Notes under the pieces: model-generated
Told to the model about the DNA's origin: nothing
The model's input: the letters and a program-made list of their open reading frames with translations, nothing else
Database searches by the model: none
Translations under genes and position numbers: made by a program
DNA from: Methylococcaceae bacterium
GTDB lineage: Bacteria > Pseudomonadota > Gammaproteobacteria > Methylococcales > Methylococcaceae
Direction: 5' to 3'
Assembly: GCA_004299145.1 (NCBI GenBank)
Contig: SCQD01000255.1
Span: forward strand, 1-32,444
DNA: 32,444 bases
Part shown: piece after piece, positions 1 to 15,679 of the stretch
How positions within the stretch are numbered: position 1 is the stretch's first letter
How the letters are laid out: each line of letters opens with the position of its first letter

Positions 1-128
1 TCCAATTCGCCCTTGACGGTATGCACGTTGTCGGCGAATTCACCCTCCGCGTGAATCAAATAGCAGCGGCGCGGGCAATAGGCGTATTGGTTGAGGGCGG
101 AAATGGGGACGGGATCAGGGGGATTCAA
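1..128 (-). CDS. cas4: Cas4 exonuclease, N-terminal part (cut by window edge)
   Basis: The frame after cas7 reads [20 protein letters not shown] and then continues to the window edge. This is the N-terminal signature of Cas4, a RecB/Dna2-like Fe-S nuclease that trims prespacers with Cas1-Cas2 during spacer acquisition. The Cys in AYCPRRC is the expected first cluster ligand. I see no ATG or GTG in frame. The best start is a TTG inside the last codons of cas7, giving a 14-nt overlap, with AAAGG about seven bases upstream. The position directly after cas7 is the standard type I-C order. Only about 42 codons are visible, so the nuclease motifs and the state of the gene cannot be judged. Confidence 0.85.
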
Positions 129-1002
129 TTTCGTGCCTTTTGTGCAACCGTATGCCTTTCGGCAAGGTGTCGTCCGTCCATGCGCAAGCGACCCGATAAT
201 CGGCGAACGATTCGGGAAAACCTTTGTCTTGTGCCGCGTCCGCCAATTCAACCCGGATGCCTTCGAACAATTTATGCGCATGGGCGCAGCCCAGGCGGGC
301 TTCGCGCCGGTTTTGTCCGGCGTTGTTTTCGTGCTGGGTGCCGACGTGTTCAAAATCGTACAGGCCGCGTACCACCATTTCACCGCGCGCCGCCGAACGG
401 TCGTGTTCGAACAGGTGCAGCAGGGCTTCGAACAACAGGTCGAGATCGGCCTGGGTAAAACCGGTGCGTTCGGCGAAAGCGGGAGAAACATAGCCTTTGG
501 CGGCGTAGAGGCCATAGGGAACGATGTGCTTGTTGCCCATGGTGCGCTCCTTGGCTTTGTCGTCTTCCTTGGTCACGGCGCAGCGGGTAATGGTGATTTC
601 CAGCGGGGTAATCGGGTGGAAAGACTGGCCGAAAGTGAACTGCACCGGGCCGCGTACCTGGCCCCAGGCGGAACCTTTCATCACGTCGTCGCCGGTGGAC
701 AATACGCCGCCGAAGGTGCGCACGTCGAAAAACTCCCGGCACAGCCAGCGCATGGCGGCTTCGGCTTGTTGGTCTTTTTCCTTGTACTGTTCCTTGGCGG
801 CTTCGATGCCTTTTTTCTGCTCGGTTTCGATCACCGCGCCTTGTTTGATGAGGATATTGAAGCCGTTGTCGTCTGCAGAAACGCGGGCTGGCGGAAATAG
901 TTCGACGTAGTTTCTGATTTTGCGCTTCAGACATACGTCGGAAACCAAGCCCCGGTTGGTGTTGGGGTCGAAGCGCGGCATATTGCCGGTATCGGGGTCG
1001 CC
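115..1002 (-). pseudogene. cas7: Cas7 (Csd2 family, type I-C backbone), 5'-truncated
   Basis: Cas7c forms the crRNA-coating backbone of the type I-C Cascade. From GDPDTGNMPR onward the frame matches the Csd2 family: GLVSDVCLKRKIRNYVE, then FGGVLSTGDDVMKGSAWGQV, the PVQFTFGQSFHPI segment and a normal C-terminal half. What is missing is the beginning. Csd2 proteins start with a strand like NRYDFVLLFDVxxGNPN ahead of GDPD; here the codons upstream are Pro-Tyr and then the TAG stop of cas5, in the same frame. Roughly 20-25 residues are gone. The first ATG left, at base 981, starts at NM-PR, has no ribosome binding site, and would give 288 residues lacking the first strand of the RRM-like fold. 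It may be translated at low level, but a working Cascade subunit is unlikely. Confidence 0.8.
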
Positions 1003-1008
1003 GTATGG

Positions 1009-1848
1009 CTATGCCTCCGCTGGCTGTTTACGGGCGAACTGGGCGCGGGTGGGATGGCAGTCGAGCTTGCCATCGCGCACGTCGGCAAAAAAGAACACCG
1101 CTTCCGGCTTTGCCAAAATGCCGGCGGTTCGCCGCGCAGCCTCCTCGGGCTTGTCTTTTTTGACTCGTTCGGGATGGGCGCGGGCATCGGCCAGGTGCTC
1201 GCCTTCGGGCAGCCAGCGGAACCCGTGCATCCGCGCTTCCGGGGCAAATACGTCGTACAGCATCAGTCCAATATTGTCGTCATAACCGCGCCACTCGCTG
1301 CCAAGCTCTTGCTTGCGCCGTTCGAGCGCGAATTCGGCGTCGTCTTCCCCCTCGAAATCGCAGGCAAATTCGCGCACGCCGAGATAGGGGCGGTGATAAC
1401 ACTTGCCGGCGCGCGCCCGGCGCCGGAATTCTTCGATATAGGTTTTCAGCGTGTGGCGGCTGCCGAGACCGGTCTGACAAATCTCCGCGGTAATGAGGTA
1501 TTCCACGCCTTGCAAGGCCAGCATATTGCGCTGGGTGCCATCCGGCGCACCGCCGCCTGCCTGGATGGGCGAGGTTTTTTCGGGCGATTTCATCCAGGTT
1601 TTTGCGCTGTCAAGGCTGATGACGCCGATGACTTCGTTGCGGCGGAAGGAAAACCAGTTTCCACGCCGTATGACGTGAATGGCGTCGATCAGGTAATAGA
1701 TTTCCGGTTCCCAAAACACCGCTTCGAGCACCCCGCGCGCGGCGGAAGGCGTTATGACGGGATAACTCACCCGTTCCACCTTCATTTCCGGGCGGGTGAA
1801 GCAAGCGTAATCGCCCCACACCCGGAGCGTGATTTGGTTGTCGGTCAT
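1009..1848 (-). CDS. cas5: Cas5 (Cas5c/Cas5d family, type I-C crRNA endonuclease)
   Basis: In type I-C, Cas5 replaces Cas6: it cuts the pre-crRNA repeat and stays on the 5' handle. The 279-residue product begins with ITLRVWGDYACFTRPE (residues 6-21), then TPSAARGVLEAVFW (33-46), both typical of Cas5d. The region CYHRPYLGVREF (150-161) is the conserved stretch where the family carries its catalytic Lys/His. The ATG overlaps the cas3 TGA by four bases (ATGA), so translation is coupled. The end is odd: after KLDCHPTRAQ the tail ARKQPAEA runs straight into a TAG followed in frame by the truncated cas7, where cas8c should lie. The Cas5 body looks complete; whether the last few residues are native or belong to the deletion junction cannot be told. 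Confidence 0.9.
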   Translation of the reverse strand: MTDNQITLRVWGDYACFTRPEMKVERVSYPVITPSAARGVLEAVFWEPEIYYLIDAIHVIRRGNWFSFRRNEVIGVISLDSAKTWMKSPEKTSPIQAGGGAPDGTQRNMLALQGVEYLITAEICQTGLGSRHTLKTYIEEFRRRARAGKCYHRPYLGVREFACDFEGEDDAEFALERRKQELGSEWRGYDDNIGLMLYDVFAPEARMHGFRWLPEGEHLADARAHPERVKKDKPEEAARRTAGILAKPEAVFFFADVRDGKLDCHPTRAQFARKQPAEA

Positions 1849-4115
1849 AGCAAGAAATCCTCCGTGGGACGTTGGTCGATGACGATGCCGAGATGGTCGT
1901 GATACCAACCCTCCTTCAGCACCGGAATGTCGAGATTGGGCAGCAACGATTCGATGGCGCTGAATTGCTGCAAGCGAGAGTAATCGCGGGAGTGCAGGTT
2001 TACCATATAACGTTGCAGCTTACGCATGTCGCTGCGGTCGATGCGGGGTTTGCCTTTTTTCACGGGACGTTCGCGAATATCGCGGACAATTTCCCTGGCT
2101 GCGCCGTAAGGGACGATGACCGCCTGGGTATCCTCCTCGATGACGCGGGCTGATTCGGCGACTTTGCGGAAATGCAGATTCTCACGTTCGTCCTGTACTT
2201 TTCGGTCTGTCGGTACATTTTGATAAAGCTGGTCGAAATAGCATTCGAACAAGGTTGGGTCGGTTGTCAGCGCATCGGCTTCCCATTTTTCCAACAGGCT
2301 TACCGTCAAATCAGCGGCTGTTTTGTAAATTCCGGCGGGCAAATTGTGCTGCTCGGGGCGGAATATGATCACTTCGCCCAGCCTGGGTTTGCCCATTTCG
2401 TCCGTCAGACGGTTTTCCCGGTTGCAACGCCCCGCCGCTTGCACGATGGAATCCAGCGGAGCCAAGGCGCGCCACACCACGGGGAAATCCACGTCCACGC
2501 CGGCTTCGATCAATTGGGTGGACACCAGACGGCAAGGTTGCTGGTAACGCAATTGATAACGGATGGTTCCGGGAGCGGGGTTTTGTTCGTCGCCCAACCG
2601 GGCCAGGCGATGCTCGGCGCACATGGCGGACGAGAGGTGGAATACTGCGTCTTTTTTCTCGGCGGGTACTCTGCCGCGCAGCTTTTCCCAAAGCTCGAAA
2701 GCGTGGCGGCGCACGTTGACGACGCATAGGGCTTGATCACGTTCGGCCATTGCTTCGGCCAGCGCCGCCCACGAAAGCGTTTCGCCGTGACGCGGAAATG
2801 GCTTGAAGGCAACCCGGTTGAGCCGCCGAAAAAGGGTTTCGGTTGTTGCGTTGTCGATGATGGATTTGATTTCGCCCGGTGCGAATCCTTCGGTTAACGA
2901 CAGCGGGCGGCGGCGGAATGCGGGTTGGGTGGCAGTGGAAAATACGAAACTGGTGCCGTAGTGTCGGCGCAATTCGCGGAATACGTTGAGCAAGGGGTTG
3001 AGCAAATGGGTCGGCAAAGTCTGCACCTCGTCGAAAAGCACCACGCTACGGGCGATATTGTGCAGCTTACGGCAGCGAGAAGTGCGGCAGGCGAACAGGG
3101 TTTCGATGAATTGCACCGAAGTGGTGACGATGACCGGGGCATCCCAGTTTTCCACGGCATACTCCGCAGGGTGTTTTTCGAAAGGCGAGAGGGGCCGCGA
3201 TTCGTCCCCGTCTTCCGGTGCGCGCACGGCCGAGTGGTGCTCGACAACGATGCCTTCGTCATTCGGATCGAAAATGCGCCGGTATTGCGCGGCGTTTTGT
3301 TCGATGATGCTCAGATACGGGATGACGACAATAATGCGGCGCAGCCCATTCCGGGCGGAGTGGGTCAGGGCGAAAGCCATGGCGGAAAGTGTCTTGCCGC
3401 CACCGGTGGGAACCGTCAATGAAAAAAAGCCGGGGGGAGCGCTCGCTTGGTCGAGACAGGCTTGGAAAATGCGGTTGCGCAAGGCGTTGAGTTCGCCTTC
3501 GGCGGATTTACTGTTTTTTTCGGCGATCAGGCGTTCCAGCAAGCCATCGGTATTCAGCTTCAGCGGTACACGGCAAAATCCTGTGCCGTGCGCTTCGGTA
3601 TCGAGCCGGTCGGCATCGATCAGCAGCGAAAACAGCATGCGGATGTAAAACTCGACCGAGTGAGGGCTGTGCTCAATGAACGCCGGGTCGATGATGCGCT
3701 CAGGGACTTTGCCCAGTTCCTGCTCGAAACGCGCCAATAAGGGCGGCACTCGCCGTTCGGCCTGATATTTCGATCCCAGCAATAAGGCTTCCAGATCGCC
3801 ACGGTCGTGCAGTCCGGCATGATGGCCGGCGATGGCAAATGCCAAGCCGTAACTTTCGCGCTGCAAAGCCAATGCTGCGCCATAAACCGCGTGGTGGGTT
3901 TCGGCACTACTGCTGCGCTCGGCGCGCAAATATTGCTGGAACTCGTCGCGGTATTTGCCGAGATCGTGCAGAACACCCGTCCAATAGGCCGCTTCGCTCA
4001 AGGCAGGACAGCCATCGGCCACGAAACGGCGCGCCAGGGTACCGACGGATAATAAATGTTCTTGTAATAGGTGGACATTTCCATGGGCATTTTCGGTGTG
4101 GGCGAGATAAGTCAT
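1845..4115 (-). CDS. cas3: Cas3 HD nuclease-helicase (type I-C)
   Basis: Cas3 is the effector that unwinds and degrades target DNA after Cascade binding. The 756-residue protein has an N-terminal HD nuclease domain (H50-D51 in VLHDLGKY, HH in AGHHAG near 98-99, and a DADR motif near 167) and a superfamily 2 helicase: Walker A PTGGGKT near 236-242, DEVQ box at 362-365, STATQ near 393-397 and the C-terminal AGRCNR arginine-finger motif. All key motifs are intact. I chose the start at MTYLAHTENAHG because a purine-rich site (AAAGAGAA) precedes it and HD-Cas3 proteins begin so; the frame stays open further upstream but without family similarity. It heads the operon, about 100 bases downstream of a 24-bp palindrome. 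Without Cas8c to recruit it, it probably has no target. Confidence 0.93.
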   Translation of the reverse strand: MTYLAHTENAHGNVHLLQEHLLSVGTLARRFVADGCPALSEAAYWTGVLHDLGKYRDEFQQYLRAERSSSAETHHAVYGAALALQRESYGLAFAIAGHHAGLHDRGDLEALLLGSKYQAERRVPPLLARFEQELGKVPERIIDPAFIEHSPHSVEFYIRMLFSLLIDADRLDTEAHGTGFCRVPLKLNTDGLLERLIAEKNSKSAEGELNALRNRIFQACLDQASAPPGFFSLTVPTGGGKTLSAMAFALTHSARNGLRRIIVVIPYLSIIEQNAAQYRRIFDPNDEGIVVEHHSAVRAPEDGDESRPLSPFEKHPAEYAVENWDAPVIVTTSVQFIETLFACRTSRCRKLHNIARSVVLFDEVQTLPTHLLNPLLNVFRELRRHYGTSFVFSTATQPAFRRRPLSLTEGFAPGEIKSIIDNATTETLFRRLNRVAFKPFPRHGETLSWAALAEAMAERDQALCVVNVRRHAFELWEKLRGRVPAEKKDAVFHLSSAMCAEHRLARLGDEQNPAPGTIRYQLRYQQPCRLVSTQLIEAGVDVDFPVVWRALAPLDSIVQAAGRCNRENRLTDEMGKPRLGEVIIFRPEQHNLPAGIYKTAADLTVSLLEKWEADALTTDPTLFECYFDQLYQNVPTDRKVQDERENLHFRKVAESARVIEEDTQAVIVPYGAAREIVRDIRERPVKKGKPRIDRSDMRKLQRYMVNLHSRDYSRLQQFSAIESLLPNLDIPVLKEGWYHDHLGIVIDQRPTEDFLL

Positions 4116-4239: not shown

Positions 4240-4421
4240 TGGATGTGTTCCAGTGAGGTAGGCGGTGCGTGCCGAAATGTTCCCAACTCAAGGGCTTGGC
4301 ACCTCGTTGCTGGTTGCCAAGCTCTGTTCGGGAACCCTGCCTTGGAAGCTCAACTTCCCGTCAAGACACGGCGCGATGTTGCAGGGGAACGGATGAACGC
4401 GAAGCCGGAGCTTTGCGGAGT

Positions 4422-4833: not shown

Positions 4834-5745
4834 TTATATTGCGCCGGCCGCATGCTTTGCCAGCAGGGCCTGGATGGCGGCGAGGCGGGGTATGCCGAAT
4901 CTTGCGCCCAGGGCCGTGCAACTCAGCGCTGCGGTGGCGGAGGCGAATCGCAGGGTGTCTTGCCAGTTCCGGCCTTGCGCCAGCGCCAGGGCATAGGCGC
5001 CGTGGAATGCATCGCCGGCGCCGGTGGTGTCTATGGTGTCTACCGGGTAGGCCGGTAACTGGCCGTGGCTGCCGTCCTGTTTGGCCCAGAGCAGGCCTTT
5101 TGCGCCCAGCGTGATGACGGCGGTCGTGGCGTGCTGGATCAGAATTTCTATCGCCAGTTCAGGGGAGCTGAGTCCGGTGGCTTGGTGGGCGAATTTTTCC
5201 GAGCAGACCAGGTGGTCGACCTGATCCATGAGGATGCGCGTGCCGGTGTGGATGGAGCCGGCGTCCAGCACCGTGGGAATGCCCTGGCTTTTGGCCCAGG
5301 CGGCCAACGGCGGTGAAAGCAGCGGTTCGTGGCCGTCGAACAGGATGACTTTGGGCCGGCAACGGCTGAAGTCGATGGCGTTTTCCGGCAAGGCCCGGGT
5401 GGCGCCGCGATAATTGACCAGGGCGCGGCGTCCGTCGGGTTTGACCAGGATGGCGGATAGTGGGGTAGGGGCGTCGCCGCGCACGATAAAGCCGGTGTTT
5501 ACGCCGTTTTCCTGCAGTTCGTCCCAGTGTTTTTGGCCGAAGATGTCCGTGCCCAGGTAACCGGCGAAGGCGGCGCTGCCGCCGGCGCGCACCACGGTGA
5601 CGGCGGCGTTGGCGGCGGGGCCGCCGCCGCAGCCTAAAAAGCCGTCGGCCTGGGTTTTTTCGTCGGCTTCCGGGTGATGGGGTACCTGGAAAATCAGGTC
5701 GTAGGAGGCGTGGCCCAGGCAGAGGACGTCGATGGCGTGCGGCAC
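4834..5745 (-). CDS. PfkB-family carbohydrate kinase (ribokinase-like)
   Basis: The protein of about 303 residues has the PfkB fold: an N-terminal LGHASYDLIFQVP, the glycine-rich CGGGPAANAAVTVVRAGG (PfkB signature 1), the anion hole with catalytic Asp in DTTGAGDAFHGAYA (239-252, signature 2), and an ATP site around VITLGAKG. It phosphorylates a sugar or nucleoside at the expense of ATP; the substrate cannot be read from sequence, though ribokinase-like sugar kinases are nearest. The frame is open further upstream but that part overlaps bamD. A GTG four bases after the bamD stop, with AAAAGGA inside the bamD end, is the likely start. bamD and this gene are therefore cotranscribed. Confidence 0.88.
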   Translation of the reverse strand: MPHAIDVLCLGHASYDLIFQVPHHPEADEKTQADGFLGCGGGPAANAAVTVVRAGGSAAFAGYLGTDIFGQKHWDELQENGVNTGFIVRGDAPTPLSAILVKPDGRRALVNYRGATRALPENAIDFSRCRPKVILFDGHEPLLSPPLAAWAKSQGIPTVLDAGSIHTGTRILMDQVDHLVCSEKFAHQATGLSSPELAIEILIQHATTAVITLGAKGLLWAKQDGSHGQLPAYPVDTIDTTGAGDAFHGAYALALAQGRNWQDTLRFASATAALSCTALGARFGIPRLAAIQALLAKHAAGAI

Positions 5746-5749
5746 GTGC

Positions 5750-6571
5750 TCAATTGTCCTTTTCCAGTCCGAGAATGTCCCAGAGTTTTTCCACCGCCGT
5801 GCGTTCACGCACGTCCGCCGGCAACGGCACGCCTTCCCGGTAATTGTGGGCGTAGATGTGGGCGGCGGCGTCGGCCAGTTCAGCCAGTTCCAGATGCCGG
5901 TAGGAGTCTTCCAGCATTTTCAGGGCGACGGGTACGGCGGGCGTGCGCTGGTAGTCGCGGATGATGCTTTCGCAGCGCTTGGCCGCCGCCACATAGGCGC
6001 CGCGCCGCAGGTAGTATTCCGCAACGTTGGCTTCATACATGGCGATGTTGTTGCGCAGGGCGACGACGCGCTGGCGGGCGTCGGCGCTGTAGGGGCTGCC
6101 CGGAAATTTGCTGATCAATTCGTGGAACTGTTGCTGCGCTTCTTTGGCGGGCGTGGGGTCGCGCTGGGTGGTGTCGGTGGGCAGGAAGCGGTCCATGAAG
6201 CTGATGCCGCGGTTGTAATTGGTCAGCGCGCGCAGGTAATAAGCGTAGTCGACGTGGGGATTGCGCGGGTTGAGCGAGATGAAGCGGTCCGCGGCGGCGA
6301 TGGCGGAGTCGGGTTCGTCGTTTTTGTAGTAGGCGTAGGCGATGTCCATCTGCGCCTGGTTGGAGTATTTGCCGAAGGGATAGCGCGATTCGAGTTTTTC
6401 GTACAGGGTGACGGCCTGCTGATAATTGCCTTCGATCAGGGATTTTTTGGCTTCCGTGTAGAACTGGTCCGCGCTCCAGCCGGCGTATTGGTCGGTGTCT
6501 TTCTGGTCGGAAAACAGGGAACATGCCGGCAGGACGGCGCTCAGCAGAATCAGTAGAATGGTTTTTTTCAT
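5750..6571 (-). CDS. bamD: Outer membrane assembly lipoprotein BamD
   Basis: BamD is an essential part of the BAM complex that inserts β-barrel proteins into the outer membrane. The 273-residue protein begins with a lipoprotein signal (MKKTILLILLSAVLPAC) whose lipobox LPAC places the acylated Cys at about residue 17. Then come TPR-like helices: ADQFYTEAKKSLIEGNYQQAVTLYEKLESRYPFGKYSNQAQ is the classical BamD N-terminus, followed by YYLRALTNYNRGISFMDR and YEANVAEYYLRRGAYVAA. The length is usual for gammaproteobacterial BamD. It is transcribed away from the yjbQ-like gene, with a 109-base divergent spacer between them, and the sugar kinase follows directly. Confidence 0.95.
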   Translation of the reverse strand: MKKTILLILLSAVLPACSLFSDQKDTDQYAGWSADQFYTEAKKSLIEGNYQQAVTLYEKLESRYPFGKYSNQAQMDIAYAYYKNDEPDSAIAAADRFISLNPRNPHVDYAYYLRALTNYNRGISFMDRFLPTDTTQRDPTPAKEAQQQFHELISKFPGSPYSADARQRVVALRNNIAMYEANVAEYYLRRGAYVAAAKRCESIIRDYQRTPAVPVALKMLEDSYRHLELAELADAAAHIYAHNYREGVPLPADVRERTAVEKLWDILGLEKDN

Positions 6572-6680
6572 GGGGATCGCAGGGTCAAATCCGGCATAGG
6601 GCTGGCCCGCGAGTATACCTTGAGTGGCGATTTTCCGACAAACGCGGGCTTTGGGCCGGCCTTTCCAGATCTTGATTTTT

Positions 6681-9326: not shown

Positions 9327-10614
9327 GCATTTGGCAAAAAGCGTCGAATACTTTGCGCATTTGCGGTTGCTTGTAGGGAAACAGCTCGGGCGGGTCCATG
9401 GCGTGGACGATCATGTTGCTGTCCACCTCGAAAATCAGCAGTTTGCCGTCGGCGGTTTCGGCGCAGTCGATGCCGAAATAGTGCAGCCCCACGCTTTCGT
9501 AAATGGCGCGCAAGGCGTTTTTGTGGCGTAGCGCAAAGCCTTCGTCGAAGTTCGCCATGAAGTTGGCTTCCTCGGCGCGGTTTGCGGCGTTGCCGGTCAT
9601 GTCGGCGTTCAGATAATGGATCATCCAGTGTTTGGAAATGGCCATGTGACAGGCGAACGGCCGGCCATTGATCAGCAGCACGCGGTATTTGCGAAACCAG
9701 CCGTCGGCACTGCGATAGTCGATGAACGGCGATAGATAAAACGCTACGGGGAGTGCTGCGTCGCCATGCTCGCGCAAATATTCCGCGATGCCGTCCGGAT
9801 GATCGAGTTTGGCCAAGCCGTGTCCCGCATGCGAGTCGACGGGGCGCACGATGATGGGACAGCCGCCGCGCAGCGGACTGACTAAGGCTTCCTGAAAGCC
9901 GCCGACGGTAGTCGGAATACTTAAAGCTTCTTGAATCACTAAGGCTTCGGGAAAGTCGGCGTGGGGTAGTGCCGCCGTCAGGGGCAGCGCTTGCTGGCCG
10001 ATTTGTTGCAGCGTGTTTTTATCGAGGCGCAACGTTACCGGCATGACGACACCGGGTATGGCGTGGAGCCTTTCGTAAGCATCATTACGCGAGAGCCGGG
10101 CAATGCCGGCAGGCCGATTGATGACCGGGCACGGCCAAGCGGCGACTGTTGTTGCAAGCTGTTGCAGCAGCGGCTGGTTCTGTTCGGATTCCCCGACGGC
10201 GATGAACAACGCATCGTGCGCGGGCAGCGTCGGCGGCAACGGCAGATCAGCGGAAACATAGAGCAGGTCGAGCTGAACGTTGGCCTGTTCCAGCAAGCAC
10301 TCCAGCGGCGTATTTGCCATCAGATCGCCCGGCGCCATGACTGCCAGTACGCGGAGGCAGGCAGGGCCGGCAGCGGTGGGAGCACGGTAAAGCTGCCGGA
10401 TTTGCAGCGCTTGGACCTGGGTGGCGAGCGCCACGCTTTGCTGTCCGCGCAGTTGCAATAGCGTCGATAAGTCCAGCAGGGCATTGGCGTCTTCGGCGTC
10501 GAGCGTGGCGCGCGTGATCAGTTGCGTGCCCAAGGCCGTCAAATCGTCATCGGCAACAGCCATGCGCATCAGCGCGGCCAGGCCGATCAGTGGTGTATGG
10601 TTGTGATTTTTCAT
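9289..10614 (-). CDS. TPR-linked ATP-grasp protein, RimK-like
   Basis: The 441-residue protein has three parts. The N-terminus (about 1-75) is helical and TPR-like (ANALLDLSTLLQLRGQQSVALATQVQALQI). A middle α/β domain follows (RVLAVMAPGDLMANTPLECLLE onward), like the pre-ATP-grasp domain of glutathione synthetase-type enzymes. The C-terminal half is ATP-grasp: IIVRPVDSHAGHGLAKL is the nucleotide-binding strand and loop, and FGIDCAETADGKLLIFEVDSN carries the acidic and Asn metal ligands. ATP-grasp ligases join a carboxylate to an amine or thiol through an acyl phosphate. Substrates are unknown. It follows the SerC-like gene after only 22 bases, so the two are probably one operon. The ribosome site is weak. 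Confidence 0.8.
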   Translation of the reverse strand: MKNHNHTPLIGLAALMRMAVADDDLTALGTQLITRATLDAEDANALLDLSTLLQLRGQQSVALATQVQALQIRQLYRAPTAAGPACLRVLAVMAPGDLMANTPLECLLEQANVQLDLLYVSADLPLPPTLPAHDALFIAVGESEQNQPLLQQLATTVAAWPCPVINRPAGIARLSRNDAYERLHAIPGVVMPVTLRLDKNTLQQIGQQALPLTAALPHADFPEALVIQEALSIPTTVGGFQEALVSPLRGGCPIIVRPVDSHAGHGLAKLDHPDGIAEYLREHGDAALPVAFYLSPFIDYRSADGWFRKYRVLLINGRPFACHMAISKHWMIHYLNADMTGNAANRAEEANFMANFDEGFALRHKNALRAIYESVGLHYFGIDCAETADGKLLIFEVDSNMIVHAMDPPELFPYKQPQMRKVFDAFCQMLNDETAQTPPAA

Positions 10615-12103: not shown

Positions 12104-13657
12104 ATGGCACAAGTAATCAATACTAACACTTTATCCCTGAATTCTCAGCGCCAATTGAATAAGTCGCAAATGGGGTTGGCGACGACGATGGAACGCCTGT
12201 CGTCCGGTTTGCGCATCAACAGCGCCAAAGACGACGCCGCCGGTTTGGCGATTTCCGAAGGCATGTCGTCCCAGATTCGCGGCCTGAATCAAGCCAATCG
12301 CAACGCCAACGACGGTATTTCCATGGCGCAGACGGCTGAAGGCGCATTGGGAGCATCGGGCGACATTTTACAGCGTATCCGCGAACTGGCCGTGCAATCG
12401 GCCAACGCTTCCAATACGGCTTCCGACCGTAAAGCGCTGAATGCCGAGGTCGCCCAGCTGGCTTCGGAACTGGATCGCATCGCGACCACGACGGAGTTCA
12501 ACGGCCAGAAGCTGCTGAATGGAACCAATTCGACGTCCACTTTCCAGGTGGGCGCCAACGCCAATCAGACCATCAGCGTCAATACCGCTAATTTCCGCAG
12601 TTCAGCCTATGGCAACTATCGCATCGGCGCCTCGGTGGCGACGACTACCGGCGGTACGGGGACGTTGACGCTGGGCAGTACGGCCGGCTCGAATATTTCC
12701 CAGGGCAGTCTTACCTTGGGCTCCTCCCGCATCGCGGCGGCGGGAACCCTGACGGTAAACGGAGCCGATGGTCTGGCGACGGTGGCCTATAGCGCCAGCG
12801 ATAGCGCCAAAACCGTGGCTTCTGCGGTGAATGCCCAGACCACCGCGACGGGGGTTACGGCCACGGCGCGTACCGAAGTGGGCTTGTCGGGTTTTGTCGC
12901 CAGCACGAATTATACGTTCAAGCTGGCGTCCGATAATAATACGGCACAGCCGCAGTCCATTACTTTTACCACGGGCGCTCCGCCCATCAATGCCGATGGC
13001 CTGGCTTCCGCAGTGAAAGCGTTCAACGACGTTTCCTCTAAAACCGGTGTTACCGCACAAATCGATACCGCCGGCACCGGGCTCATTCTGACCAATGCCA
13101 ACGGTGAAGACATCAAGCTGCTCAACGATTCGGTGACGGGTAACGATCTTAACGTTACGGATATATTGGGAGGCAATACCGTGGTTGCGACCGCCGCCAA
13201 TGCGGTGGGTGTTTTTGGCACGGCGGATGTTGTGATCACCGGGGAGCTGACTTTTGACTCCTCCAAGACGTTTAATATCGTCGATTCGGCTGCGGGTGCG
13301 GCTGGTTTCCTGGCGACGGCCACGGGCGATTCGTCACAGTTGCAGCAGGTCGCTCTGCTGGACGTCAGCAGTGTGTCTTCCGCAACCCGCTCGATATCGA
13401 TCATTGATTCCGCCATAGCGGCCGTCAACACCCAGCGCGCTACTTTCGGCGCCGCGCAATCGCGTTTTGAAACGACGATAGGCAACAACCAGACGACTTC
13501 GGAAAACCTGTCGGCAGCGCGCAGCCGCATCCGCGACGCTGATTTTGCCTCAGAAACGGCCAACTTGAGCCGCAACCAAGTGCTGCAACAGGCGGGCACT
13601 GCGATGTTGGCGCAGGCCAACGCGTCGGGGCAGGGCGTGCTTTCCTTGCTGAGATAA
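12104..13657 (+). CDS. fliC: Flagellin
   Basis: The filament subunit, 517 residues. The N-terminal D0/D1 region ([20 protein letters not shown], then [20 protein letters not shown] and [20 protein letters not shown]) and the C-terminal D1/D0 region ([37 protein letters not shown], ending SLLR) are both classical. The centre, about residues 170-410, is Thr/Ser/Ala/Gly-rich and variable, corresponding to the outer D2/D3 domains. There is no signal peptide because flagellin is exported by the flagellar type III apparatus. AGGAG precedes the ATG. A strong stem-loop follows the gene, so flagellin mRNA is probably more abundant than the downstream genes. Confidence 0.97.
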
Positions 13658-13678
13658 GCGCCGGGCAAGGGCACGCAC

Positions 13679-13717
13679 TTCAGGGCGACGGCTTGGGCTA
13701 TCGCCCTGAATGTGTTT
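13679..13717 (+). terminator. Terminator or attenuator after fliC
   Basis: Ten-base arms TTCAGGGCGA and TCGCCCTGAA enclose a twelve-base loop and are followed by TGTGTTTT. This intrinsic-terminator shape just after fliC probably cuts most transcripts there and lets a fraction continue into flaG, fliD and fliS. Confidence 0.75.
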
Positions 13718-13745
13718 TGATAACTGGATTTCGGAGGAATAAACA

Positions 13746-14231
13746 ATGGAGACTTTACCAACCAGTATGCAGGTCTCTGTTAATACGCCCCAGTACACAA
13801 CCGCCAAAAGTAAACTGCCTGAATCGGGAGCGGCAAACAAAGGCCAGGAGCAACCTTCCGCGTTTTCCAGTGCCAACGCCGTACGCAACGCGACGGAAAA
13901 TCTGCGCAAAATCACTTCCACCACAGAAAGCGATGCACTGAACAAGCCGAAGGAAGTTAACGATTCACAGGAATCAAAGGAAACGAAGGAATCAAAGGAA
14001 TCCAAAGACCTCAAGGAGCTGGACGATGCCGTCAGCAAAGTTAATCGATTTTTTGAACAAGTGAGTCGTGAATTGCGGTTTCAGCGTAGCGAATCCACCA
14101 ACCAAATGGTAGTGCAGGTCATCGATCATAAGACCGGTGAAGTGATCCGTCAGTTTCCATCGGAAGAAATGCTGAAAATTTCCAAGGAATTGGAAAAAAT
14201 TTCCGGTTTATTATTTAAAGATAAAGCCTGA
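13746..14231 (+). CDS. flaG: FlaG family flagellar protein
   Basis: The 161-residue protein ends with the FlaG domain: VSKVNRFFEQVSRELRFQRS, then VVQVIDHKTGEVIRQFPSEE and MLKISKELEKISGLLFKDKA. FlaG affects filament length and adhesion in species where it has been tested; the mechanism is not settled. The N-terminal half is disordered-looking and includes a charged repeat run of Glu-Ser-Lys units (residues about 76-92), encoded by near-repeats of GGAATCAAA. CGGAGGA precedes the ATG. The position between fliC and fliD is the usual one in many gammaproteobacteria. Confidence 0.9.
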   Translation: METLPTSMQVSVNTPQYTTAKSKLPESGAANKGQEQPSAFSSANAVRNATENLRKITSTTESDALNKPKEVNDSQESKETKESKESKDLKELDDAVSKVNRFFEQVSRELRFQRSESTNQMVVQVIDHKTGEVIRQFPSEEMLKISKELEKISGLLFKDKA

Positions 14232-14269
14232 TTGAAAGGCTTACAACTTTAATCTAATGGGAGGCGGTC

Positions 14270-15679
14270 ATGGCAGGTTTAACGACATCGGGGCTGGGTT
14301 CCGGCATGAACATCAGCTCAATGGTAAGCCAGTTGGTGGCTGCGGAACGCGGACCGGCAGACACTCGTATGGCGCGGAAGGAAACGCAGCTGCAAACAAA
14401 AATTTCCGCCATCGGCACCGTCAAAAGCGCGTTCAGCGATTTGCGCACCAGCCTTGCGGCTTTGCGTGACGCCAAGGCGCTGGACAAAGTCAGTGCGTCC
14501 AGCAGTGATACCAGCGTATTGACGGCATCCGCCGCCGCGACGGCGACGGCGGGCAGCTATGCCGTGGTGGTCAGTCAAGTGGCCCAGTCACATGCGCTGG
14601 CTTCAAAATCCTATACCGGCGACAGCGATGTTGTGATGGCGCGGCCGCTGGGAACTGAAGAAGGCTCGTTGACGATCACGAGAGGCACGGATTCCAAAAC
14701 CATCAAGATAGACGGCACCAACAATACTTTGTCGGGTATCCGCGATGCCATCAATACTGCCGGGGCGGGCGTGCAAGCCGCCATCGTGAACGACGGCAGC
14801 GGCTATAGGCTGACCCTGAGCAGCAATGCCACGGGTGCCGCCAACAGCATCGGCATCAGTGTTGTCGATCCAGACGGCGCCAACGGCGATGCGGCCGGTT
14901 TGTCTGCGTTGGCTTTCAACGCGACCGACAAACAATTGACGGAGACCCGTCAGGCCAAAGATGCTTTGCTGTCCGTCAATGGCTTGGACATTACCAGCAC
15001 TTCCAACACGGTTTCCACGGCCATCAACGGGGTTACCCTTAATCTGGCTCAAGCGCAGGCAGGTAAAACCGTCAATGTTACCGTAGCTCAGGATACCAAT
15101 AGTTTTTCCAGTGCCGTCAAAACCTTGGTCGATAAATACAATGCGGTTATCGACGCGGTCTCGCAGGTGGCGGGTTACGATGATAAAACCAAGCAAGCCG
15201 GGCCGTTGATGAGCGATGCGGGAATACGTACTGCGTTGGGGCATGTCAAAGATATTGTCGGCCAAGCGGTGGAGGGATTGACGGGCACCATCACCCGTTT
15301 GCAGGACGTGGGCGTGACGGCGCAACGGGGCGGTAAACTGGTGCTGGATACCAGCAAGTTCAATGCTGCATTGGCCGCCAATAAAGCCGACGTTATCACC
15401 CTGTTTACCGGGAGCAATGGCGTAATCAATAAACTGGATACCGCACTGAGCAGCATCGTGGATAGCGGAGGTTTATTGGCCGCCCGGAGCGATGGTCTGC
15501 AAAAGGCAGTCGATCAAATCGGCAAGGACAGAGAGACGCTGAATACCCGTATGGATAAGCTCCAAACGCGCTTGTCCACGCAGTTCAACGCCATGGATCG
15601 GTTACTGGGGCAATTGAATGCGACGGGTACGGCATTTTCACAACAGATGACCGCATTAACCAAATCTACGAGTGGGTAA
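14270..15679 (+). CDS. fliD: Flagellar filament cap protein FliD (HAP2)
   Basis: FliD forms the cap at the filament tip and guides flagellin folding. The 469-residue product starts with TTSGLGSGMNISSMVSQLVAAE, the FliD N-terminal motif, followed by a helical segment (ETQLQTKISAIGTVKSAFSDLRTSL). The middle contains a flagellin-hook IN-like motif (LSGIRDAINTAGAGVQAAIV). The C-terminus has the expected coiled coil (YNAVIDAVSQVAG; later LDTALSSIVDSGGLLAARSD, TRMDKLQTRLSTQFNAMDRL). GGGAGG stands just before the ATG. It lies in the filament operon between flaG and fliS. Confidence 0.95.
   Translation: MAGLTTSGLGSGMNISSMVSQLVAAERGPADTRMARKETQLQTKISAIGTVKSAFSDLRTSLAALRDAKALDKVSASSSDTSVLTASAAATATAGSYAVVVSQVAQSHALASKSYTGDSDVVMARPLGTEEGSLTITRGTDSKTIKIDGTNNTLSGIRDAINTAGAGVQAAIVNDGSGYRLTLSSNATGAANSIGISVVDPDGANGDAAGLSALAFNATDKQLTETRQAKDALLSVNGLDITSTSNTVSTAINGVTLNLAQAQAGKTVNVTVAQDTNSFSSAVKTLVDKYNAVIDAVSQVAGYDDKTKQAGPLMSDAGIRTALGHVKDIVGQAVEGLTGTITRLQDVGVTAQRGGKLVLDTSKFNAALAANKADVITLFTGSNGVINKLDTALSSIVDSGGLLAARSDGLQKAVDQIGKDRETLNTRMDKLQTRLSTQFNAMDRLLGQLNATGTAFSQQMTALTKSTSG

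Follow-up and report, generated by a model that had tools for sequence, protein, structure and literature searches.

In the type I-C Cascade, Cas8c is reported to carry a putative PAM site and, by prediction, the surface on which Cas3 docks; the small subunits, which correspond to the C terminus of Cas8c, are reported to be made from an internal start within cas8c, and a complex of Cas5c, Cas7 and crRNA is described as stable without Cas8c and Cas11c (PMC7684278). A natural type I complex that has no large subunit is also on record, that of the type I-Fv system of Shewanella putrefaciens CN-32, in which diversified Cas5fv and Cas7fv replace the missing protein (PMC7266957). Inactivation of CRISPR-Cas has been reported both in deletion mutants of Staphylococcus epidermidis RP62a (PMC3784566) and through IS insertions into cas genes (PMC10359306).

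The locus described here, from a bacterium of the methane-oxidising family Methylococcaceae, resembles the last two cases in that a lesion affecting cas genes, or removing them, has cost it its CRISPR function, in this instance almost certainly. It differs from them in kind: the RP62a deletions were selected in the laboratory and the IS cases are insertions, whereas the present lesion is a small deletion internal to a type I-C operon, which has very probably brought cas5 directly up against cas7. The RP62a system, moreover, is of type III-A. With I-Fv the locus shares the lack of a large-subunit gene but, in place of the diversified Cas5fv and Cas7fv, it encodes a Cas5 and a Cas7 of the ordinary I-C kind, the latter cut. 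Among the papers listed from the literature covered, outside which most subscription journals lie, no title or start of an abstract deals with a natural I-C operon lacking cas8c.

Gene order and components of the locus

The window, meaning the whole stretch of 32,444 nucleotides that was analysed, is an entire contig (C301) of a 4.64-Mb draft genome (G000) in 353 contigs, and its base 1 is a contig end. The minus strand carries cas3, cas5, cas7 and cas4 in that order, with cas8c absent between cas5 and cas7:

3..128, minus strand: the first 42 codons of cas4, broken off where the contig stops at window base 1
115..1004, minus strand: remainder of cas7, from part of codon 24 to the stop (115-117); first in-frame ATG at 981 (codon 32)
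1004..1005, no strand: deletion junction, with cas8c and the 5' end of cas7 gone, from base-by-base comparison with relatives
1009..1848, minus strand: cas5 (cas5c), 279 aa, intact; start at 1848, stop TAG at 1009-1011
1845..4115, minus strand: cas3, open, from profile matches and the point at which the alignments of relatives start

The longest cas3 reading frame extends to a TTG at 4286 but, since relatives align only from residue 52-59 of it, the ATG at 4115 is the probable start. The cas4 gene probably starts with the TTG at 128, the only nearby in-frame start (there is no ATG in the vicinity), and so shares its first 14 nt with the end of cas7.

Profile searches identify Cas3, Cas5c and Cas7. 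Cas3, with its HD and helicase domains, matches PF22590 (1.2e-14) and TIGR01596 (2.2e-27; 96.2 bits over a cut-off of 43.45), while its score against TIGR01587, at 101.3 bits, falls slightly below the cut-off of 102.45. Cas5 matches the Cas5c model TIGR01876 (4.4e-31; 108.6 bits over a cut-off of 85), is predicted on that basis to process crRNA, is 85% identical over residues 1-278 to the Cas5 of the closest relative, a Methylococcaceae MAG (locus L001 of genome G025), and is the sole Cas5 in the draft genome at E <= 1e-15. The remainder of Cas7 (Csd2), taken from its first in-frame ATG at 981, matches TIGR02589 (9e-76; 255 bits); it is around 84-85% identical to Cas7 of L001 and 83% identical to that of L002, and this cut copy is the only I-C type Cas7 in the genome (E <= 0.01). 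A search for the I-G cas7 family was uninformative, no control being matched. The cas4 part is 71% (residues 1-42) to 73% (residues 2-42) identical to Cas4 of L001. Judged by the components of a type I-C system, cas3 and cas5c are thus present; a full-length cas7/csd2 is not, and the large-subunit gene cas8c/csd1 with its internal Cas11c is found in neither the window nor the assembly.

The operon adjoins pilZ, pfkB and bamD-type genes, and the flagellin (12104-13657) and FliD (14270-15679) genes, lying within 12104-15679 of the window, are ordinary chromosomal neighbours. A genome of the same genus (G016) contains no Cas5 match and keeps the pfkB-bamD block, at 75% nucleotide identity to window positions 4853-6646. 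When 18 kb of that genome (L109, with the block around 12753-14580) were compared with the window by blastn, pfkB-bamD alone was matched, and neither pilZ nor the cas region. Taken as an empty site, G016 shows only that the locus varies.

The junction between cas5 and cas7

Read on the minus strand, the junction gives RAQFARKQPAEA, then the cas5 stop TAG (1009-1011), then PYGDPDTGNMPR, in which P and Y are followed by the interior of Cas7 in the frame of cas5; the translation of 1110-115 likewise runs ARKQPAEA, stop, PYGDPDTGNMPR. This confirms a sequence-only reading of the same DNA, according to which the inside of Cas7 resumes two codons beyond the cas5 stop in the same frame. In the complete genome G011 (locus L103) cas5 is followed by GGAGGCATAGCCATG, the ATG of which is the cas8c start, whereas the window has GGAGGCATAGCCAT and then ACGGCGACCCC, and ACGGCGACCCC corresponds in relatives to cas7 from within codon 24. 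The breakpoint can accordingly be placed at 1004|1005. Its left side falls between the T and the G of the former cas8c ATG, so that the cas5 stop survives, as do two bases of what was the start codon of cas8c, and its right side falls inside cas7 codon 24, converting an Asn codon to Tyr.

Measured against five relatives, the lost stretch comes to 2255 (L001), 2058 (L103), 2060 (L002), 2098 (L003) or 2015 (L104) bp, so that the earlier estimate of about 1.7 kb was too low. The truncation of cas7, earlier put at 20-25 codons, comprises 23 that are lost wholly and one, codon 24, that is lost in part. The 23-24 N-terminal residues absent from the window are present in all 13 full-length relatives aligned, which speaks against a Cas7 that naturally starts at this point, and residue 24 is Asn in the same 13 sequences, the Tyr of the window being a product of the join. 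The missing segment is presumably the first strand of the RRM fold; structure prediction for full-length Cas7 from 14 sequences (mean pLDDT 38) was too poor to show its fold.

A type I-C operon broken by one deletion of approximately 2.0-2.26 kb is, we consider, very probably the correct description. The suggestion of one internal deletion is upheld by the junction as read against relatives, by the intact operons of those relatives and by the lack of cas8c elsewhere in the assembly. Microhomology does not appear to have driven the event, there being none that is clear: with G011 taken as the model, the base after the left flank is G and the base before the right flank is A, and neither matches the window.

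Could the junction instead be a product of strain mixture or of assembly, with cas8c still in the population or genome and the contig representing a minority allele or a chimeric join? The fragmentation of the assembly and the position of the contig end, around 1 kb from the junction, lend this some plausibility, as does the fact that the remainder of cas4 and the cas1 of the operon are also missing, so that the region may have assembled badly. Nevertheless, gene order and orientation are normal on both sides of the junction, and no contig carries cas8c, though the 20 of 353 contigs whose lengths were looked at include some as short as 1.9 kb. Within 40 nt of the breakpoints the flanks in relatives have only 8 bp (L103) or 5 bp (L001) in common, and joining by an assembler without spanning reads would therefore be unlikely. 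Finally, window bases 1-150 match elsewhere in the assembly only by chance, over 16-28 bases, and no repeat shared with another contig was seen that would account for the contig end. We regard a mixture or artefact as unlikely.

Presence of cas8c in relatives and absence from the genome

The position of cas8c between cas5 and cas7 is maintained in 73 of 73 related loci that show both genes. These comprise 71 of the best 80 among 490 Cas5 relatives, the other nine having no cas7 in the stretch examined and being left out, along with G011 and G019, both complete genomes from the family. In L001 the genes cas5, cas8c, cas7, cas4, cas1 and cas2 are followed by a CRISPR array, and G011 shows the same order. 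The absence of cas8c from the window, as originally proposed, is confirmed and, set against these 73 loci, is not due to chance.

The Cas8c of L001, of 657 aa, is recognised by both PF09709 (2.4e-105) and TIGR01863 (1e-88). A search of the draft genome with PF09709 yielded nothing at E <= 1, the same profile matching two of 14 control genomes, one of them over the cut-off. With L001 Cas8c as the query against five genomes, matches were obtained in four (G025, G011, G026 and G019), the window's own genome being the sole exception. Two queries with positive controls thus rule out a cas8c elsewhere in the assembly, answering the proposal that the rest of the genome be searched.

Within the family, 16 of 38 genomes including the window's own have a Cas5 match; four of the others are 66-85% identical to the Cas5 of the window and the remaining 11 are 42-46% identical. 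Cas8c was checked in the four closest, all of which have it. Their operons (G025/L001, G011/L103, G026/L002 and G019/L104; cas3-cas5c-cas8c-cas7-cas4-cas1-cas2) share their order with the window and encode an equally long Cas5. What the window lacks by comparison with them is cas8c, together with the first 23-24 codons of cas7; its operon is unassembled beyond codon 42 of cas4.

These comparisons bear on a quite different reading, in which the locus is a working minimal I-C variant whose Cas5 and naturally short Cas7 suffice without a large subunit, as in Shewanella. There is a precedent in type I-Fv (PMC7266957), and the length of Cas5 (279 aa) and the open state of the remaining frames might be taken in its favour. 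However, none of the 73 comparable loci lacks cas8c, and for that reason the minimal variant is rejected. The long Cas5 tail is common to relatives that have Cas8c, with 25 of 25 loci (L001-L025) matching to query residue 266 or beyond, and the Cas5 and Cas7 of the window are orthologues of proteins from relatives keeping cas8c, with no sign of diversification to replace a large subunit. The event has also removed the start codon of Cas7 with the N-terminal segment present in the 13 relatives aligned and has split the old cas8c ATG, and the relatives checked, the four closest of the 15 other family genomes with a Cas5 match, are equipped with Cas8c. The minimal variant, already judged the less likely possibility by the sequence-only reading, is close to excluded.

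Age of the deletion

The 1300-odd codons of cas3, cas5 and the remainder of cas7 contain no stop or frameshift. Alignments of 22 sequences contain no column in cas3, none in cas5 and three in cas7 that would be invariant but for the window, compared with up to seven such exceptions for relatives with intact operons; by our reading of the alignment, the three in cas7 are the junction residue, A188G and M221L. Private changes were also counted for the window and L001, respectively, by reference to an outgroup. With L103 the figures are 55 and 57 (cas3), 12 and 20 (cas5), and 13 and 21 (cas7); with L104 they are 45 and 40, 16 and 6, and 15 and 17; and with L002, a poor outgroup since it belongs to the same genus (g13) as L001, they are 76 and 40, 16 and 10, and 16 and 13. 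The counts are not uniform, and neither they nor the invariant columns carry a consistent signal of relaxed selection on the remaining genes. Since their codons are free of stops and frameshifts and show no consistent acceleration, we consider the deletion probably recent on an evolutionary scale, as had been proposed.

Adaptation genes and CRISPR arrays

It had been proposed that spacer acquisition might still be running. For this we find no support: cas4 stops at 42 codons, no other contig of the assembly continues it beyond that codon, and the assembly contains neither an I-C cas1 nor an array resembling those of I-C relatives. The start of cas4 was said to be undamaged, and what is present of it is similar to its L001 counterpart, but that amounts to 42 codons only, ending with the contig. 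Nor is there any array to inspect to the left of the window, where inspection had been suggested, base 1 being the end of the contig.

The sole Cas1 in the assembly belongs to a second CRISPR locus, on contig C229 (L084, 1-3343), where it is joined to Cas4 in a fusion of a different subtype. The fusion is split between two frames near 1990-2020 and is followed by cas2 and five repeats of another type. The pieces score above the cut-offs of the general cas4 and cas1 models; of the models specific to a subtype, cas4g_cas1g and cas1_MYXAN do best but fall short of theirs. Just upstream on the other strand lies a RelE/ParE-type toxin gene (TIGR02683, over the cut-off), beside which is a possible antidote gene (TIGR02684, below the cut-off). 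The arrays of L001, L103 and L104 have in common the repeat end GTGGATTGAAAC; in the draft genome this occurs once, on C322, outside any array, and the array may be unassembled.

Together these observations raise the possibility that the whole locus is decaying stepwise, with further lesions besides the deletion of cas8c, among them the loss of the adaptation genes and array. This extends the explanation by a single deletion rather than opposing it. Pointing in this direction are the missing I-C cas1, cas4 remainder and array with the relatives' repeat, the split state of the genome's other Cas1, and the lack in the window of a stretch of 176-773 nt that separates cas7 from cas4 in five of five near relatives, the two genes probably overlapping by 14 nt instead. 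On the other hand, absence downstream of cas4 may be an assembly gap because the contig ends within that gene, and missing assembly of the adaptation genes and array is as likely as their true loss. As for the spacing, cas7 and cas4 are at most 62 nt apart in 50 of the 66 loci in which the distance is measurable (seven of the 73 are not) and more than 150 nt apart in the other 16, so that a short spacing may be ancestral. We hold stepwise decay to be possible, if somewhat doubtful.

Genes between cas7 and cas4 in relatives

The longer cas7-cas4 gaps contain a variety of genes. Those of L002 (9753-10525) and L104 (10484-11135) hold DUF433 and DUF5615 genes, that of L003 (9800-10547) a nucleotidyltransferase-HEPN pair and that of L103, on the reverse strand, a PemK/MazF-like fragment slightly below the cut-off, while L001 retains a remnant without a Pfam match. 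A DUF2281 match, also slightly below its cut-off, accompanies the PemK/MazF family in such gaps. We take the DUF433/DUF5615, nucleotidyltransferase/HEPN and PemK/MazF families to be of toxin-antitoxin type. On that footing, among the nine of the 16 loci with a gap above 150 nt whose frames were scanned, toxin-antitoxin-type families occur in five (L002, L003, L104, L005, with its gene at 9818-10443, and L103, with its match below the cut-off); L007 has an aspartyl protease, and the frames of L001, L004 and L022 match no family. At least three toxin-antitoxin-type families are therefore found at the cas7-cas4 boundary of relatives.

A CRISPR-regulated toxin-antitoxin, CreTA, is reported to punish the loss of cas6 or cas8 (PMC12737573); the CreT described in PMC10097628 is a small RNA. 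The genes in the gaps of relatives are protein pairs, in contrast to CreT, and a guard role for such pairs is speculation. The boundary in this I-C clade might nevertheless be a repeated seat of toxin-antitoxin genes that guard the effector, the loss of a guard having allowed the loss of cas8c: five of five near relatives have an insert or a remnant, and the window, with no insert, is the only locus seen without cas8c. Against this, the 50 measurable loci with close spacing have no insert and still keep cas8c. We view the idea as very improbable.

Consequences for interference

As the junction shows, the deleted sequence begins with the third base of the cas8c start codon and ends with the first base of codon 24 in cas7, and cas5 retains its stop. 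Residues 502-618 of L001 Cas8c align with PDB chains named Cas11 and, with the small subunits encoded inside cas8c, the window therefore loses the large and small subunits together. Without Cas8c there would be no PAM recognition and no docking of Cas3; without Cas11c the R-loop would not be stabilised; and a Cas7 deprived of its 23 N-terminal residues, and of a start codon at the old place, would be expected to be poorly made or misfolded. With Cas8c and Cas11c absent and Cas7 cut, interference by this I-C system has almost certainly been lost, and the earlier claim that the deletion abolishes interference is well supported by the loss of the first two. Processing of crRNA by Cas5c would still be possible if an array survives, and, should the cut Cas7 fold, a crRNA-bound Cas5c-Cas7 sub-complex could conceivably form. 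Why the deletion was kept, whether through relief from an immunity cost, from self-targeting or from exclusion of a wanted plasmid, is a matter for conjecture.

The inactivation of CRISPR-Cas is already known, and the window is a well-documented further example of it, an ordinary loss-of-function deletion. It offers a clear natural case in which one internal deletion has silenced a CRISPR effector and left the neighbouring genes readable. The toxin-antitoxin-type genes lying between the effector and adaptation genes of several relatives have a bearing on the maintenance of such loci. An annotation based on cas3, cas5 and cas7 alone, moreover, might call this genome I-C positive even though its effector is almost certainly dead.
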